28,401 bases of DNA from a virus. The position numbers and the translations under genes were made by a program. The notes beneath the pieces are model-generated. The model was not told where the DNA came from and made no database searches. It saw nothing but the letters and a program-made list of their open reading frames with translations. The number at the start of each line of letters is the position of its first letter. The first letter of the stretch is position 1. Below, one piece after another: positions 1,006-28,401 of this stretch. The stretch covers positions 1 through 28,401 of the IMG/VR virus record IMGVR_UViG_3300023301_000067. One strand, written 5' to 3'.

Positions 1006-1105
1006 GGGACACAAGGACACAAGAATCGGAAAAAAAGCGGAAACACTTTTTTCCTTTTTTTTTACGCGCAGCGCTTTTTTTGCCATTCTTGTGTCCTTGT
1101 GTCCC
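1006..1105. repeat. Long inverted repeat, 34-nt arms, 32-nt spacer
   Basis: Arm 1006-1039 pairs with 1072-1105. The outer 21 bp (1006-1026 with 1085-1105) are perfect, two mismatches follow, and pairing then resumes through an A7/T7 block and GCG/CGC. The outer arms contain the repeat core twice (GGGACAC and GGACAC). The structure could extrude as a cruciform or fold as RNA. It is not a classical terminator because no T-run follows the outer stem. Candidate roles are origin hairpin, packaging site, or a structured RNA. Confidence 0.8.
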
Positions 1106-1526: not shown

Positions 1527-2030
1527 ATGAAAAGACCATCAACAGGTTCAACTCCCAAACAGTATGCGTACGCTACAATGAGATTAACTGGTCAGGGAGG
1601 TTCTAAAAAAGAAATAGCTCGTAAGGCTGGGTTCTCTCATTCTGTGGCTAAGAACGCTAAGTACAAAATTGAGAATACTGAAGGCTACCAAAATGCGGTT
1701 ATTGTTCTCGCTCATGAAAGTAACAATCTATTACTAGCTATCCTCGCTGAGTTTAAAGCGCGTGGTGTAAAAAACTTTTCAGACAAAGATCTTATTGGTT
1801 CGCTTAAAGCTATGACAACCGCTTGGGATAAAATTGATAATAAAAGAGCCCCTGCTAAATTAAAAACTGATGAAGGGAATCCTTTGCGAGCAGTGTTTAC
1901 TAAACGAGTTGAAACTCAAACAGTTAGATTTGAAAAAGAGAAGCAGGATAAAATTTCCAAACAGGAAAAAGCTACCGCGCGTGAGGCCGAAGTCGTTGCG
2001 GTGGGTGAGGGGATTGATATGGATTTTTAA
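1527..2030 (+). CDS. terS: Terminase small subunit (probable)
   Basis: A 167-residue protein, first gene of the late block and 3 nt before the large terminase. Residues 23-48 (GSKKEIARKAGFSHSVAKNA and following) read as a helix-turn-helix of the type small terminases use to bind the packaging site. A central helical part (50-105) would form the oligomerisation core. A charged Lys/Glu-rich C-terminal stretch (130-156) ends in an acidic tip, as expected for contact with the large subunit. TerS recognises viral DNA, often within or just upstream of its own gene; the repeats at 1339-1404 are therefore candidate sites. The assignment rests on the helix-turn-helix, the size and the position; the sequence family itself is too variable to recognise by eye. 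Confidence 0.75.
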   Translation: MKRPSTGSTPKQYAYATMRLTGQGGSKKEIARKAGFSHSVAKNAKYKIENTEGYQNAVIVLAHESNNLLLAILAEFKARGVKNFSDKDLIGSLKAMTTAWDKIDNKRAPAKLKTDEGNPLRAVFTKRVETQTVRFEKEKQDKISKQEKATAREAEVVAVGEGIDMDF

Positions 2031-2033
2031 ACG

Positions 2034-3842
2034 ATGGCCAAATACAATATACAATTTCAGAAAGAACATAACGCCAGTATTGTTGCTCAGTTAATTGAGG
2101 ACCCTGATTTAATTGAAAACAAACGGTGGCGGATGAACAATTTATATTGGATCATTACTAAAGACGTGGAAAGTCCTAAGTCTCTGTTTCTTATGAATCG
2201 GGCGCAGCGGCACTTTTTTGAGAATTATTTAAATCCGGACGATCCGAGTAAGCGGTACTACCGGCATATTATTCTTAAGTCGAGGCAACTGGGGTTTACT
2301 ACGTTTTATGACTTATGGATTTTGGATGAGATTTTATTTAATACCAACCGTGAAGGTTTAGTTATTGCTCATACGCTGGGTGATGCGACTGAAATTTTTG
2401 ACCGTAAGATTGACTACGCGATTCGGAATATGAACGAAGAGGTTAAAGGAGCTTCTTTTAAATTGGTTCGAAACTCAGCGAAAAAGATTCAGGTGGTTAT
2501 TGATTATGGGCCGGAGGAAGGTTCCACCAGTTCAATTCAGGTATCAAACTCTGGCCGGTCGGGAACTTATTTCTACGTACACATCTCTGAGTTTGCGAAG
2601 CTTTGTTTGGCCTACCCAAAACGAGCATCGGAAGTTGAAACCGGAACATTTCCAGCGGTTCCGTTTGATGGATCTATTTTTATTGAATCGACAGCGGAAG
2701 GAATGGCCGGACGTTTTTACGAGATGTTCAACGAGGGGTGGCCGACGAGAGATACGATTACTCCGATGAAATCACGAGTCATGTTCAAGCCGCATTTTTA
2801 TAACTGGCAGTACGACGATACTGAAATGGCTAAAATTACGGAGATCATTCCAGTGGCTGAAATGGAAATGGGGGAGATTGATTTTGCTGAGTATCAGAAA
2901 GATCATAATTTGAGTGACGTTGAAATCACTTACTACTACATGAAGTGGCTACAGGCCGGAGGTAAAAACTCTACCGATGCGGTTAATAAGTTGCATCAAG
3001 AATTCCCTACCACCACGGAGGAAGCGTTTCTCTCAACCGGTCAGGCGTATTTTCCAACTGCTAAAGTGTTTGCGATGATGCAGAAAGTGGTCAATGGTAC
3101 GCGCGGGGAATTATCGAAAGACGAAAAAGGTGAAGTTAAATTTCAAGAGTTTTCTGCCGGGAATTTAGAGGTGATTGAAAAGCCGATAAAAGGTATGCGG
3201 TATGTGATCGGGGGTGACACGGCAGAAGGTCTCGCCCACGGAGACAGTCAGTGTTTATACGTATTAAAACATTCAACCGAAGAGTGTGTGGCCGTTTACA
3301 AATCCCAAGTGCCTCCGGATGAATTTATTACTGAGGCTTTCAATGTGGGCAAGTATTACAACTGGGCGCTGCTTGGAATTGAATCAAACAAAGACGGGCT
3401 GTGGGTAAACGATGGTCTTGATAAGCTGGGGTATGTCAATCTCTACTACCGGAAATCGTTTGACGATATCACTAAAAACATCACCAAGTTCTTTGGTTGG
3501 AAAACAACATCGGCTACGCGACCGTTCGCGCTCGCTGCGCTCAAAGCTATCTTCTTAAAGAAAGAAAACGGATTTCCGATGGCTATTCTAGTGGAAATGA
3601 TTACGTTCTTGCGAAATATGAAGGGGCGACCAGAAGCTCTGGCCGGTAAGAACGATGACGTGGTTATGTCCGCATCGATTGCGTATGCTATTTTGCAAGA
3701 AATTGGAACGTACGTTGTTCAATCCAGCGACAGCGAAGGATTTTCGTACGCTAAAGCCATCTTTGGCGAACCTCAAAATCAGGACCGATTAGTAAATCAT
3801 TCACAACACCAATCAGAAACCTCGGGAGTAAGAGAGTTATAA
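2034..3842 (+). CDS. terL: Terminase large subunit (packaging ATPase/nuclease)
   Basis: A 602-residue motor that pumps DNA into the prohead and cuts it. The ATPase domain shows a terminase-type Walker A KSRQLGFTT (82-90), a Walker B strand ending in catalytic Glu (YVHISEFAK, 181-189, E186), a coupling motif ESTAEG (218-223) and the typical HQEFPTTTEEAF (321-332) at the domain border. The RNase H-like nuclease domain has GGDTAEG with D395, GIES with E450, and KNDDVV with D541/D542 as metal ligands. All key residues are present and the length is normal. The start at 2034 is 3 nt past the terS stop, so translation is probably coupled. Identification is secure. Confidence 0.96.
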   Translation: MAKYNIQFQKEHNASIVAQLIEDPDLIENKRWRMNNLYWIITKDVESPKSLFLMNRAQRHFFENYLNPDDPSKRYYRHIILKSRQLGFTTFYDLWILDEILFNTNREGLVIAHTLGDATEIFDRKIDYAIRNMNEEVKGASFKLVRNSAKKIQVVIDYGPEEGSTSSIQVSNSGRSGTYFYVHISEFAKLCLAYPKRASEVETGTFPAVPFDGSIFIESTAEGMAGRFYEMFNEGWPTRDTITPMKSRVMFKPHFYNWQYDDTEMAKITEIIPVAEMEMGEIDFAEYQKDHNLSDVEITYYYMKWLQAGGKNSTDAVNKLHQEFPTTTEEAFLSTGQAYFPTAKVFAMMQKVVNGTRGELSKDEKGEVKFQEFSAGNLEVIEKPIKGMRYVIGGDTAEGLAHGDSQCLYVLKHSTEECVAVYKSQVPPDEFITEAFNVGKYYNWALLGIESNKDGLWVNDGLDKLGYVNLYYRKSFDDITKNITKFFGWKTTSATRPFALAALKAIFLKKENGFPMAILVEMITFLRNMKGRPEALAGKNDDVVMSASIAYAILQEIGTYVVQSSDSEGFSYAKAIFGEPQNQDRLVNHSQHQSETSGVREL

Positions 3843-17075: not shown

Positions 17076-17714
17076 ATGCCAAAAGCTTCTCCCAAGAATA
17101 AAATTAATACGGGGAGGTTTAAAAAAGGATGTGTTGGTATCCGTAAAGGAGTCCCCGTATCTGAAGAGACTAGAGAAAAGATGAGGCAAGCAAAAATTGG
17201 TAAGAAAGTCACTTTCTCAGACTCTCACAAAAGAAACTTAAGCATTGCCTTAAAAGGAAAAGAGCGACCACACCTTCAGGGGAAAAAAAGAATTTTTACT
17301 GAGGACTGGAAAGAGAATATTAGACTGTCTAAAGTTGGTCAACCCAGCAAATCTAAAGGTAAAAGCTGGAAAATAAATCCGATCCATATACCAGCTATGA
17401 AAGAAAGAATGCTTGGCAGTAAAAACCCCTCGTACATTTTTGATAGAAGTAAGCTTGCTAAGAAACAGATTAGAAATGACGGAGCTTATTTTGAGTGGAG
17501 AAATTTAGTAAAAGCAAGAGACTGTGGAAAGTGTCGGATTGATAATAAGAACTGTGGTGGTAGAATAGAAGTGCATCATATTTTGAAATGGTCAGACTAC
17601 CCTAATTTAAGATATGAAGTTAATAACGGTATAACCCTGTGCAAGTTACACCATCCTCGAAAGAAAGTTGAAGAAATAAGAATGATTTCAACTTTTAGAG
17701 AGTTAATTTTTTAA
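17076..17714 (+). CDS. Freestanding HNH homing endonuclease with NUMOD3-like motifs
   Basis: A 212-residue endonuclease. The N-terminal half carries repeated NUMOD3-type DNA-binding motifs: VSEETREKMRQAKIGKK (28-44), FSDSHKRNLSIALKGKE (47-63) and TEDWKENIRLSKVGQPS (75-91). The C-terminal HNH domain has the CGKC knuckle (150-153), the VHHIL catalytic His pair (166-170, H167/H168), NNG (183-185) and C189 with H192/H193, all expected for metal binding and cleavage. Such genes are mobile within phage genomes and cut relatives lacking them near their own site. This one lies between lysis and tail genes and interrupts the otherwise structural block. The next gene starts with TTG 5 nt after its stop. 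Confidence 0.9.
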   Translation: MPKASPKNKINTGRFKKGCVGIRKGVPVSEETREKMRQAKIGKKVTFSDSHKRNLSIALKGKERPHLQGKKRIFTEDWKENIRLSKVGQPSKSKGKSWKINPIHIPAMKERMLGSKNPSYIFDRSKLAKKQIRNDGAYFEWRNLVKARDCGKCRIDNKNCGGRIEVHHILKWSDYPNLRYEVNNGITLCKLHHPRKKVEEIRMISTFRELIF

Positions 17715-21709: not shown

Positions 21710-22575
21710 TGGAACTAGAAAATTTACAAAAAGACCGGTTCCTTCGTAAAGATCCGAACCAGGAAGATTCAACTAAAAACGCGGCTTACGCAGCGGTTAA
21801 TCCTGTACCCAAGATAGGTAACGACTCAAGAAGAAAGATAGGTCAAACTAACGGTTCTGAAGAAGACCACGGAGCTGAAAATATTTTAACCGGAACGGTT
21901 ATTACTTCATGCTTTATTCAAACATCTGCCTTACCTTCTCGGATTGAGTTAGAAGGGAACGATTTGACTCTGTTTGATGATACCTACTCTCAAAATGGAA
22001 ATATTGTGGGGGATGCTTCGAGAATTGTGTTTACCCACGGTTCTGGTAGCCGAAAAAATACAATCACCAGTGGATTTATTTTACAGAAAAGAGCTTTAAC
22101 TGGAGATACTTATTCAAATGTTTTAGAGCTATTTTCTCCTAATAATGATCCAAGTAGTAATTACATTTTTGTCGGTCGGCGAGGAACAGGAGACAGTAGA
22201 AACATCAGGGTTGTAGAAATTGCACCCGACCACCGAACGGACGTTGGTGATTCAGAAGGATATATCAATGGTATTTTTAGAGTACGCGTATCACGTAACG
22301 GAGTTGATGCTGATTACCGTGACGGTCTGTATGTCTTTGACCGAGGATCAGAAAGCTCTTCTCGATCGGGAACTGTCAATTGGTTGGTGGCCGGGGGCGA
22401 AGGTGGACAAGTTCGCCTTTCTTATATGGCCAGCCGTGAAGGTAATCCTTTGACTGATGCCATATTTGACATTTTTGTGAGCTCCGAGGGGATTAGTTTT
22501 TTTGGACTACCCACATCAAACCCTGGTGGCAGCGGTAAAGTCTGGAAAGATGGTACGACTCTGAGAATAACGTGA
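21709..22575 (+). CDS. Tail appendage/fibre subunit
   Basis: A 288-residue protein overlapping the nozzle-like stop by one base (TAATG), so coupled to it. Residues 1-60 are polar and Lys/Glu-rich. Residues 61-258 are regular beta repeats (GTVITSCFIQTSALPSRIEL, 62-81; ASRIVFTHGSG; NYIFVGRRGTGD). The end GLPTSNPGGSGKVWKDG (266-282) and the final TLRIT is the short terminal motif widely seen at tail-fibre C-termini (form LPTSDPxxxGxLWxDGGxVKV). The only TGA stop of the late block ends this gene, at exactly the expected fibre terminus. It may form a tail appendage attached at the nozzle. Confidence 0.72.
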   Translation: MELENLQKDRFLRKDPNQEDSTKNAAYAAVNPVPKIGNDSRRKIGQTNGSEEDHGAENILTGTVITSCFIQTSALPSRIELEGNDLTLFDDTYSQNGNIVGDASRIVFTHGSGSRKNTITSGFILQKRALTGDTYSNVLELFSPNNDPSSNYIFVGRRGTGDSRNIRVVEIAPDHRTDVGDSEGYINGIFRVRVSRNGVDADYRDGLYVFDRGSESSSRSGTVNWLVAGGEGGQVRLSYMASREGNPLTDAIFDIFVSSEGISFFGLPTSNPGGSGKVWKDGTTLRIT

Positions 22576-22582
22576 TATTATT
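22572..22582 (+). promoter_or_regulatory. Possible extended -10 before the internal-protein genes
   Basis: GTGATATTATT at 22572-22582 is identical to the 11-mer at 1511-1521 before terS and contains an extended -10 (TGATATTAT). It overlaps the stop of the fibre gene and would start transcription about 8 nt before the ATG at 22597. No -35 match is evident at the usual distance. Confidence 0.3.
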
Positions 22583-22596
22583 AATACAAATAAATT

Positions 22597-23388
22597 ATGA
22601 CACCTGAAGCTATAAAACAACTGCAAAGAAGTCTCCGTTTAACTCCTACTGGTGTTATGGATACGGCTACTTATGCAGCCATGACAAATGCGGTGACCAC
22701 TTCAGTTTCTTCTAATCCCCAGATGCAGCAGTACCTGAGAACAAACTCGGTTGAAAGTATAGTAAATGGATTTTTCTCCAATAATCTTTCTGGTATCACT
22801 GATATTACCGGTCGACCGTTCACCAGAGAACAACAACAAGCAGCGGTCAGTGAAGCTGAGCGAGTGTTTAATCCGGGATTTAAAGCTCAAGAAGCTTTTG
22901 ATCAGTCAATGGTTCAAGATACCCTGCGTGGACAACAAGAAGACTTCGGACAGTTCCAACAAGCTGAAGAGGAAATGTTTGAAGATCAAAAAAACCAGTT
23001 GGACAATAGTGCAGCTGACCAAGGAGTACTGTTTTCTGGATCACGCATCCAGAAGGAAAATGACTTGAGAAATACCTTTCAAGATAGAGAAGCTATCCAG
23101 CGTGGGCGGACTCAAGACAATATCAGAACAACAGCTCGAAATAATCAGTTTAGGAGAGGTAACGAAAACGCTAAAGGTTTGTCTGATTTTTATGACCTGC
23201 CCGGCCAGAGTCAATTTAATGCGGGGGTGGCCGGTGGTCAAGTGAGTCGGCCAAACAGTTTGTCTTCTGCGTACAACCCTAATGAATTTAATTTCCAAGG
23301 AACACAAAACGTGGCCAATACTACTGCAGTGCAACAGCGAGCGGCAAATACTTTAACAAATACAAGTAGGAAAAAGATTCCATACTAA
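22597..23388 (+). CDS. Virion protein with peptidoglycan-binding-like N-terminus
   Basis: A 263-residue protein. Residues 4-30 (EAIKQLQRSLRLTPTGVMDT, then ATYAAM) follow the pattern of the PG_binding_1 fold: IKxLQ...L-x-x-x-TG-x-x-D-x-x-T-x-x-A. The rest is helical and Gln/Asn-rich: QQEDFGQFQQAEEEMFEDQK (111-130) and a Gln/Arg/Asn-rich tail. It is the first of three consecutive genes at the end of the block, where podoviruses encode internal or ejection proteins. It could help the particle bind or pierce the wall, but catalytic residues are not seen, so it is not itself a lysin. Confidence 0.65.
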   Translation: MTPEAIKQLQRSLRLTPTGVMDTATYAAMTNAVTTSVSSNPQMQQYLRTNSVESIVNGFFSNNLSGITDITGRPFTREQQQAAVSEAERVFNPGFKAQEAFDQSMVQDTLRGQQEDFGQFQQAEEEMFEDQKNQLDNSAADQGVLFSGSRIQKENDLRNTFQDREAIQRGRTQDNIRTTARNNQFRRGNENAKGLSDFYDLPGQSQFNAGVAGGQVSRPNSLSSAYNPNEFNFQGTQNVANTTAVQQRAANTLTNTSRKKIPY

Positions 23389-23399
23389 TTTAAAAAAAT

Positions 23400-24824
23400 A
23401 TGAGATTATACAATAAAATTACCGATTTATTTAATCCTACTACTAATCAAGCTGGAGGTTTTAAGTTTGAAAATCCTAAATCAGCAGATAGCTTGTCGGT
23501 AAGATTTGGAGGTAGACCAAAAGCTTCTGAAGCATGGAAAAATTTTGGAAGCCAACGCCAAGTTAATCCCCAGAGCGGATTACCAGGACGAAGACCAAAT
23601 TTTACTGGTTCAGATCAAGCTCAATCAGCAATGGCTCAAGTTCAAGCTCAAGCACCAATGGGAGGAAGCTCTCAATCAGCGATGGCTCAAGCGCCAGCAC
23701 CAATGGGAGGAGGTTCTCAGCCGCCTATGAATCCGACGATGGCTCAAGGACCAGAGGCTGCACCAGCTATTCCTTCCCAGTGGATGAAGCCAGACGGAAC
23801 CTTTTTTACCCCAGACGAAGTTGCTGGTAATATAGCATCGACGTTACAACAGGGAAGTGCTGGAGGTGACATTGGAAAAATAGCTGGAGATAACATTGTT
23901 GGAGGTCAGAAAACTACAGAACAATTAGAGACTGAATTGAGATTGCTAAACAACGCTCAAGGTGATATTGCCAGTGGAGCAGAAGATCCGTTTGGAATCG
24001 CTTCTGATTCAGGTATTGCCTATTCACCACAAGAACTTCAAGCCATTGAAAATGCGTACGCCGGTATTTATGACCCAGCAATTGAAAGTGCAAGAAATAA
24101 AGTTATGCAACGGCAGTCTGAAGAGAAAGAAGCGAAAGAGGCTGAAATTGCTGCGTCCAAAGCTGAAACTGAATTTCAAAATGAATTAACTATTTTGGGT
24201 AAAAAGCACGGTTACGATCTTGATAAAATGAAGGCTGACCAGGGGTTTCAAATGTCTTTAGCTTCATACAAAGCTTCTCTGTCTGCATCAGCGGCGGCGG
24301 CCAAAGCCGGTTCGGCCGCTTCAGGAATGACTCCTTACTCTGACGAACGATCTTTCAGAACCGTTCAAACAATCGACGAACTCATGGGTCAAGTTTCAAA
24401 CTTTACCGTTGGATTTGGTAGCTTGCTGGCTGGTGTGCCAACCTCTCAAGCGACTTCTTTCCGGTCACAATTAAATACCCTAAAAGCTTCAATTGCTTTC
24501 GGAGAACTTACCGCCATGCGTGAAGCCTCAAAGACTGGAGGTGCTCTTGGTAACGTGTCAAACATCGAGTTGGGACTTCTTGAGTCAGCTCTGGCTGGAC
24601 TTGATACGGCTCAGGGAGTAGAAGACTTTAAAGGTCAATTAGCCAAAGCTAAAGGATCTATTAATAGATGGCGAGAGGCCCAGGGGGCTGCGGCTCTTGG
24701 AACTGGTCAAGCGACAGGCGGTTCAAGAGTTTTGGTTTCACCGACTGGAGAATCTTTTGATGCTTCAGATCTTACTCCAGAGGAATTTCAAGAAGCCATT
24801 GCTGATGGATTTAGGTCACAATAA
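23400..24824 (+). CDS. Internal virion protein (ejection-type)
   Basis: A 474-residue protein. Residues 1-72 are polar. Residues 73-120 are low-complexity Gln/Ala/Pro/Met/Gly repeats (QAQAPMGGSSQS, QAPAPMGGGSQ). A Glu/Lys/Ala coiled coil spans about 225-305. The C-terminal part has FRSQLNTLKASIAFGELTAM (355-374) and SKTGGALGNVSNIELGLLES (377-396), which I recognise as the conserved block seen in many podovirus internal/DNA-transfer proteins: hydrophobic-ASKTGGALGxVSxxELxLL. It probably packs inside the head around the portal and enters the cell at infection. It lies 12 nt after the previous stop. Confidence 0.78.
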   Translation: MRLYNKITDLFNPTTNQAGGFKFENPKSADSLSVRFGGRPKASEAWKNFGSQRQVNPQSGLPGRRPNFTGSDQAQSAMAQVQAQAPMGGSSQSAMAQAPAPMGGGSQPPMNPTMAQGPEAAPAIPSQWMKPDGTFFTPDEVAGNIASTLQQGSAGGDIGKIAGDNIVGGQKTTEQLETELRLLNNAQGDIASGAEDPFGIASDSGIAYSPQELQAIENAYAGIYDPAIESARNKVMQRQSEEKEAKEAEIAASKAETEFQNELTILGKKHGYDLDKMKADQGFQMSLASYKASLSASAAAAKAGSAASGMTPYSDERSFRTVQTIDELMGQVSNFTVGFGSLLAGVPTSQATSFRSQLNTLKASIAFGELTAMREASKTGGALGNVSNIELGLLESALAGLDTAQGVEDFKGQLAKAKGSINRWREAQGAAALGTGQATGGSRVLVSPTGESFDASDLTPEEFQEAIADGFRSQ

Positions 24825-27707: not shown

Positions 27708-28401
27708 TTACAGTTCTTTTAAGAAGTCTTGGTAAGCATCACTGATTTGCCACGCTACTTTGATAATCGTTGTCTCCATCCGTTCGATTTCTCGTTCATC
27801 GAACTCTCGGTGGAAGGAGATAATCCGACCGGTCACGTCAAGAATTTTAGCACCTTCTCTCCAAAAGTCTTGACTTTCGGACTGGGTTTCTCTTGTCTCA
27901 ATCCAGTCGAGATCACAGTATTCCGGCATTGGTTTGCCGGTAGCCATGAGCATTACGGCGTAAAACAAGAGCTGGTCGTGCTTGAACACTTTGGCTTTGG
28001 TCCAAGGAGCCTTACCGGTCTTGTACTCACGAATTACATTCAGTTCAGGATTGTAGATGTCCAAGAGTGAAAAGCAGGGGACGATTCCACCAACCTTACA
28101 TACTGGAGTAGGGTCTCCAGCCCGCATTGAGTTTCCAATTTGAAACTCAGATATACCGTTAATATCCAGCTCCATAAGAACTTCGCGCATCCCCTCACTC
28201 ATCGGGTAGTCCCGAGATAGCTCCTGAATCGCTGTTGCCCTGTTCGGAATACTCTTCATAATTTCCCCCAGATCTTCCACCATACTAGCAAACGCACTTC
28301 CAAATCGGAGGTACTTGGTATCGAGTTTCTCGGTACTTTCAAAATACTCTTTTCGATATCGGTCCGGACTCTTTGAAAGTACCGAGAAACTCGATACCAA
28401 G
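27708..28401 (-). CDS. PD-(D/E)XK nuclease (Cas4/RecB-like), 5' end at the window edge
   Basis: At least 230 residues, reading leftward from the window edge; the TTG at 28400 is probably internal, as the frame may continue outside. An S-S-F-x-x-L-x-x-x-P-x-x-Y start and FGSAF (33-37) resemble RecB-family nuclease N-termini. Catalytic motifs are present: D114 in LLDIY, E125 and K127 in EYK, and Q143...Y147 in QLLFYA. The usual His after FGSA is replaced by Phe or Ala (FGSAFASMVED). No Cys cluster is seen in the visible part, so an iron-sulfur site is doubtful. Phages use such enzymes in recombination and end processing. The first 30 codons contain both arms of an inverted repeat. Confidence 0.8.
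   Translation of the reverse strand, partial: LVSSFSVLSKSPDRYRKEYFESTEKLDTKYLRFGSAFASMVEDLGEIMKSIPNRATAIQELSRDYPMSEGMREVLMELDINGISEFQIGNSMRAGDPTPVCKVGGIVPCFSLLDIYNPELNVIREYKTGKAPWTKAKVFKHDQLLFYAVMLMATGKPMPEYCDLDWIETRETQSESQDFWREGAKILDVTGRIISFHREFDEREIERMETTIIKVAWQISDAYQDFLKEL
28314..28401. repeat. 30-bp perfect inverted repeat ending exactly at the window edge
   Basis: 28314-28343 is exactly complementary to 28372-28401, with a 28-nt spacer. The second arm ends on the last base of the window, so the arm may be longer. Both arms lie inside the nuclease reading frame and the translation is sensible on both sides. Confidence 0.95.

Follow-up and report, generated by a model that had tools for sequence, protein, structure and literature searches.

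Among the closest described systems, the replication origins of Staphylococcus aureus pathogenicity islands (SaPIs) and phage-inducible chromosomal islands (PICIs) carry two sets of iterons that flank an AT-rich region, an organisation that had not been seen in any other bacterial replicon as of 2018 (PMC6092414; the literature after 2018 was not exhausted), and SaPI Rep and Cch2 bind iterons by their C-terminal domains (PMC7581432). Two further points of comparison are the alpha protein and ori/crr of the satellite phage P4, and the iteron plasmids of the RepA/RepE type, in which iterons adjoin an A/T-rich element. Here we describe an iteron array built around an inverted repeat at positions 1006-1105 of IMGVR_UViG_3300023301_000067, a linear, complete virus record in IMG/VR (28,401 bases) that was analysed at its full length and is called the window below. 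The inverted repeat is very probably the core of an initiator-specific origin of replication of the P4/SaPI kind, carried by full-sized phages of an apparently undescribed family. This kind of origin is already known; what is new is its occurrence in a full-sized phage family, the distance of the array to the initiator gene, and a large set of iteron words with a candidate specificity residue.

The inverted repeat is real and lies far above chance. Its arms at 1006-1039 and 1072-1105 are 34 nt each and 94% complementary, with 32 nt between them, and it scores 28 (match +1, mismatch -2), whereas the best of 300 dinucleotide-shuffled copies of the intergenic region reaches 14 and the best of 60 shuffled copies of the window 15. 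This geometry, together with the presence of the TGTCC word twice in each arm, is as given by a first-pass annotation made from the sequence alone. Each arm consists of two overlapping copies of the 10-bp word GGGACACAAG. Perfect or altered at one to three positions, this word also forms an array at 924-968 and a dyad at 1154-1175, giving a total of ten iterons in three groups over 924-1175, with the inverted repeat as the central one. The proposal that the repeat and the adjoining array share their words also held, as the tandem array at 933-969 (12-bp unit GAGTCATGTCCC) is built of this word, and array and inverted repeat are therefore treated as a single feature. All five occurrences of GGACACAA(G) in the 28.4-kb contig fall within 1007-1163, and six words with at most one mismatch to GGGACACAAG were seen against 1.5 expected, a count reached in 0 of 100 shuffles. 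For GGACACAAG, a contig-wide word scan found no copy elsewhere on the window contig. The parts of the array are as follows.

924-968, left iteron group: plus-strand site 924-933 (GGGGCACAAG) and minus-strand sites 935-944, 947-956 and 959-968 at 12-bp spacing, from sequence reading and word sites
1006-1023, plus strand, left arm of the core: iterons 1006-1015 and 1014-1023, overlapping with an 8-bp step
1024-1087, no strand, core spacer: 64 nt, 64% A+T, candidate DNA-unwinding element
1088-1105, minus strand, right arm of the core: overlapping iterons 1088-1097 and 1096-1105, opposing the left pair
1154-1175, right iteron group, from word sites: a dyad of plus-strand 1154-1163 and minus-strand 1166-1175

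The dyad of the right group is also present in five related contigs (L002, L005, G001, G004 and G008), and L002 has a counterpart of the left group with a different word (GGGGCACAAGTTCTTATGCCCCGCTTATGCCCCGCTTATGCCCC). As a guess, the outer groups could set the frequency of initiation or repress neighbouring promoters. A separate dyad, CTATTGAC ... GTCAATAG, surrounds the third iteron group at 1145-1203 and is also found in L002 and L005.

Relatives were gathered by scanning viral contigs (IMG/VR) for terminase, word and primase, with terL as the anchor, and all of their contigs are metagenomic. Among those covering the region, more than 30 carry an iteron cluster in both orientations between terS and the leftward genes; the automatic array search found none in a further dozen short contigs. 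About 20 different words occur among the relatives, each repeated in both orientations throughout its own array. Both visual inspection and a script were used to derive the word consensus, and mixed words occur in some arrays (L098, G006). The following words were assigned to contigs in this way.

GGGGCATAAG: L002, L005, G001, G004, L081
GGGGCACRWG: G008
GGGGCAGATG: G009, L082
GGGACATGA: G010
GGGACATAAG: G011
GTGACATAAG: G014, L101
GTGACACAG: G002
GTGGCAGGA: L080
ACGGCACAAG: L092
TAGGCATAAC: L099, L100
CAGGCATAAG: L109
GTGGCGTAAG: L110
CCAACATAAG: L118, G026
GGAGCATAAG: G018
AGGGCATAAC: G037

Two opposed iteron sets around an AT-rich segment are found at 1006-1105 of the window and in most relatives with a located array. 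Of 26 sequences given to an automatic rule, most yielded the core layout of opposed iterons with a gap of 52-101 nt, and a few contigs with a located array gave no core; the A+T content of the inner gap in the recovered cores (64-90%) compares with 51-67% for the available sequence of each phage. An exact scan for TTGTGTCCTTGTGTCCC returned one true relative (G006/L031); the match in L032, an unrelated contig, was rejected as a probable chance match. Cultured Vibrio phages possess distant homologues of terL (33%) and of the primase (27%), and a DNA-level search of the window intergenic region in cultured phages gave no match. The terminase scan of genome contigs produced a single match, L157 (JAUUZT010000063.1), a 5.6-kb contig in a Dehalococcoidia metagenome-assembled genome. 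This contig, possibly a misbinned phage contig, is too short and too easily misbinned for a host to be named from it.

The palindrome results incidentally from the opposite orientation of the two iteron pairs. It is very improbable that the hairpin itself is functional as a cruciform or a structured RNA, two readings raised by the first-pass annotation. The RNA fold of the window sequence is strong (-53.1 kcal/mol, z -9.2), which would suit such a function, but it is strong because the sequence is a palindrome. When the arms were checked for covariation, the compensatory changes proved to be changes of whole words that are common to iterons outside the arms, and for this reason they are not a sign of base pairing; pairing held by compensatory change was not found in the relatives. 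The palindrome is lost where iteron spacing shifts, and two relatives lose pairing yet keep their iterons intact, namely G018, in which the iterons step by 8 in one arm and by 9 in the other and the outer pairing is 11/18, and G011, with an outer arm pairing of 9/18. In addition, the inner stem pairs at or close to chance level in most relatives (the window and L002, which is closely related to it, are exceptions), the same words also occur unpaired outside the arms, and no family matched in an Rfam search.

For the candidate initiator, a primase-helicase homologue is encoded by ten contigs with a resolved gene and also by G006. The protein has about 800 amino acids, and its gene lies on the strand heading away from the putative origin. 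It has a match of 2.9e-63 to TIGR01613 ('phage/plasmid primase, P4 family'), contains the domains D5_N, DUF5906 and Pox_D5, and resembles the P4 alpha protein in belonging to the TIGR01613 family and in joining primase and helicase in a single polypeptide. Its profile also matches the PDB entry 7OLA 'DNA primase' (1.2e-31) over the helicase and C-terminal parts; 7OLA is the SaPI5 protein, and in SaPIs and PICIs the C-terminal domain of the initiator helicase is what recognises the iterons. In contrast to iteron plasmids, the candidate initiator here is a helicase-primase and not a RepA-type protein, and the iterons are opposed across the A/T element.

The C-terminal 115 residues of the primase-helicase are predicted to form a winged helix (AlphaFold, 31 sequences, pLDDT 82). 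The best structural matches of this model are RFX DNA-binding domains (8ZJR, Z 10.1; 1DP7, Z 9.8) at 17-18% identity; RFX proteins are eukaryotic transcription factors, and the likeness is one of fold only. The model also shares its winged-helix fold with 1KA8 (Z 9.5 over 86 residues), the origin-binding domain of phage P4, although P4 is a satellite, its protein is only distantly related, and the comparison covers the protein. The next structural match is the tail of the African swine fever virus PrimPol (Z 8.8), and the likeness of that primase tail to the P4 origin-binding domain and RFX1 has already been pointed out (PMC10516667). Long inverted repeats were also seen shortly before the primase-helicase start in many relatives (L089 9884-9964, L092 9344-9439, L096 9880-9960, L101 9372-9454 and others); their sequence varies while the stem is kept, and they could be an RNA control element.

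A residue of this domain tracks the iteron word. In the initial set of 17 phages with both word and protein, His was present at the position of G009 residue 767 in 9/9 phages with a word beginning GG and in 0/8 others, and this was the only one of about 800 alignment columns to separate GG words from the rest. In the predicted model the residue (model residue 86) falls in the loop between the wing strands (78-80 and 90-92). RFX1 reportedly reads DNA with its wing (the 1DP7 work), and the word-linked His of the relatives' protein is located in the corresponding wing. Predictions for further phages were recorded before their origins were located, and the five that could be scored all fit the rule: G018 (GGAGCATAAG) and G019 (GGGACAT) have His, and G026 (CCAACATAAG), G023 (TAGGCAY) and G027 (AAGACAT) lack it. 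Two of these tests are weaker, as G019 is a close relative of L089 and a short inverted repeat containing the word of G023 had been seen earlier, and the predictions for G012, G013, G015, G017, G020, G024 and G025 were not scored, as no array was found on those contigs. G006 (GGGACAY), which for a technical reason was not part of the fit, carries His, and G037 (AGGGCATAAC), found later, has Ser at this column; both fit the GG rule.

Over all phages with word and protein, GG and His match in 25/25 cases. After removal of near-duplicates, His is found in 11/11 GG phages and 0/12 others (Fisher p 7e-7 against 3e-4 for the next column, values that ignore relatedness). On a tree of the remaining protein there are five word switches and five residue switches, and 5/5 independent pairs agree, the sister pairs G006/L092 and L082/L080 being examples. 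This covariation of residue and word (25 phages, 5 independent switches) is indirect evidence that the initiator may bind the iterons via its C-terminal domain. For TerS, no alignment column tracks the word, the best having five exceptions. This bears on the suggestion, also made by the first-pass annotation, that the repeat is a packaging (pac/cos) site recognised by the product of the adjoining terS gene. Although the array adjoins the terS-position gene in the relatives examined, the word-tracking residue lies in the primase-helicase, and a separate repeat array at 1338-1423, nearer to terS, is the better candidate; we therefore give a packaging role of the iterons hardly any weight. Of the functions that had been proposed for the repeat, only that of an origin was retained.

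The primase-helicase would bind these words, the spacer would melt, and replication would start at the array. In this scheme, the phage's P4/D5-family primase-helicase, seen in longer relatives, would bind the iterons via its C-terminal winged-helix domain and assemble on both arms, after which the A/T-rich spacer may be opened and replication may begin. The proposed mechanism is modelled on that established for SaPI/PICI origins (PMC6092414, PMC7581432). Alternatively, the iterons could serve mainly as an operator array that gives the primase-helicase or another regulator control over the divergent early and late promoters, and the origin would then lie elsewhere. The array is placed between divergent gene sets, P4-type initiators could autoregulate, and in many relatives a conserved TTGAC stands immediately before the third-group iteron, a possible promoter that the initiator would cover. 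However, operators do not need opposed iteron pairs and an A/T-rich spacer of steady length, the word tracks a residue of the primase-helicase, and the excess of promoters over shuffles does not stand out, making an operator array of this type unlikely. Cumulative GC skew was dropped as evidence for the origin, being confounded by the divergent gene direction; its minimum coincides with the array or lies no more than about 1.5 kb away in the window, G009, G010, G011 and G014, and not in G008 and G006.

Several observations weigh against the origin and its proposed specificity. The window spacer has only 64% A+T, and the window shows an unusually good extended stem, with 12/16 pairs in the inner part. 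The array is located beside terS and upstream of the initiator gene, at a distance of 5-9 kb (G008, G009, G014), unlike SaPIs, where it is directly downstream of the initiator gene. The window contig is without an initiator gene, ending before that region, and the cognate P4/D5 (SF3) gene is present in the relatives that reach it; one cultured Vibrio phage that was examined is without such an array. As for the word, a rule based on position 2 alone in place of GG has G037 as an exception (1/23), a sign test on five independent switches cannot go below 0.0625, and, with a single position linked, no link of word positions 4, 7 and 8 to primase residues stands out.

The window carries terL, portal and structural genes on the plus strand and leftward genes at both ends. 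The contig is probably a fragment of a genome, as longer relatives have 42-46 kb. The nearest features are the following.

555-1526, intergenic region with the putative origin: leftward genes on one side and rightward terminase and structural genes on the other, no open reading frame above 80 aa inside
1527-2030, plus strand, terS-position gene, likely the small terminase: from its position before terL and homologues at the same place in relatives
2034-3842, plus strand, terL, large terminase: phrog_2 terminase large subunit, E 1.7e-24

For the terS-position gene, a PHROG search gave no match. The second array, at 1338-1423 between the putative origin and terS, consists of 3.7 copies of a 22-bp direct repeat, CCCAAGAAAAATAAATCAAAAG, unrelated to the iterons, and is a candidate TerS/packaging site; arrays at the same place in L004, G006, G008, G014 and G037 have unrelated units, the position being kept and the sequence not. 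On the other side of the putative origin, the minus-strand gene 273-554 has a weak likeness to S-adenosylmethionine lyase (Pfam PF23780, 4.6e-5, under the curated cut-off) and, if it is such an enzyme, might serve in anti-restriction. A likely homing endonuclease, of the HNH type with a NUMOD3 motif, occurs within the structural gene cluster at 17076-17711. The 30-bp inverted repeat at 28314-28401 (arms 28314-28343 and 28372-28401) ends exactly at the contig end and looks like a fold-back assembly artefact. Among the relatives, three terL frames of 882-907 aa (G018:C1:34797-37358, G019:C1:13955-16660 and G034:C1:10424-13132) have a match split near residue 540 by an in-frame insertion of about 300 aa, probably an intein, and a 734-aa helicase-like frame in G014 (oriented 22301-24505) has an intein-like insertion (CFTGETEILTD...VRHKGFVFVTGNC).

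In comparison with SaPIs and PICIs, the window and its relatives are not satellites but full-sized phages that encode terminase, portal and structural proteins themselves, and about 20 words occur within one phage family. We suggest tentatively that wing residues of the RFX-like C-terminal domain may select iteron bases, with His specifying a leading GG, in a readable code of origin specificity in which the wing and all iterons would change together in each lineage. If true, each lineage would possess an origin of its own, closed to firing by competitors and to hijacking by satellites. The family offers about 20 iteron words as a natural series, in most cases together with the matching initiator, and one candidate specificity residue; how an initiator changes in concert with every copy of its site thereby becomes directly testable. 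The family also places an origin that is very probably of the P4/SaPI type in full-sized, apparently undescribed phages.
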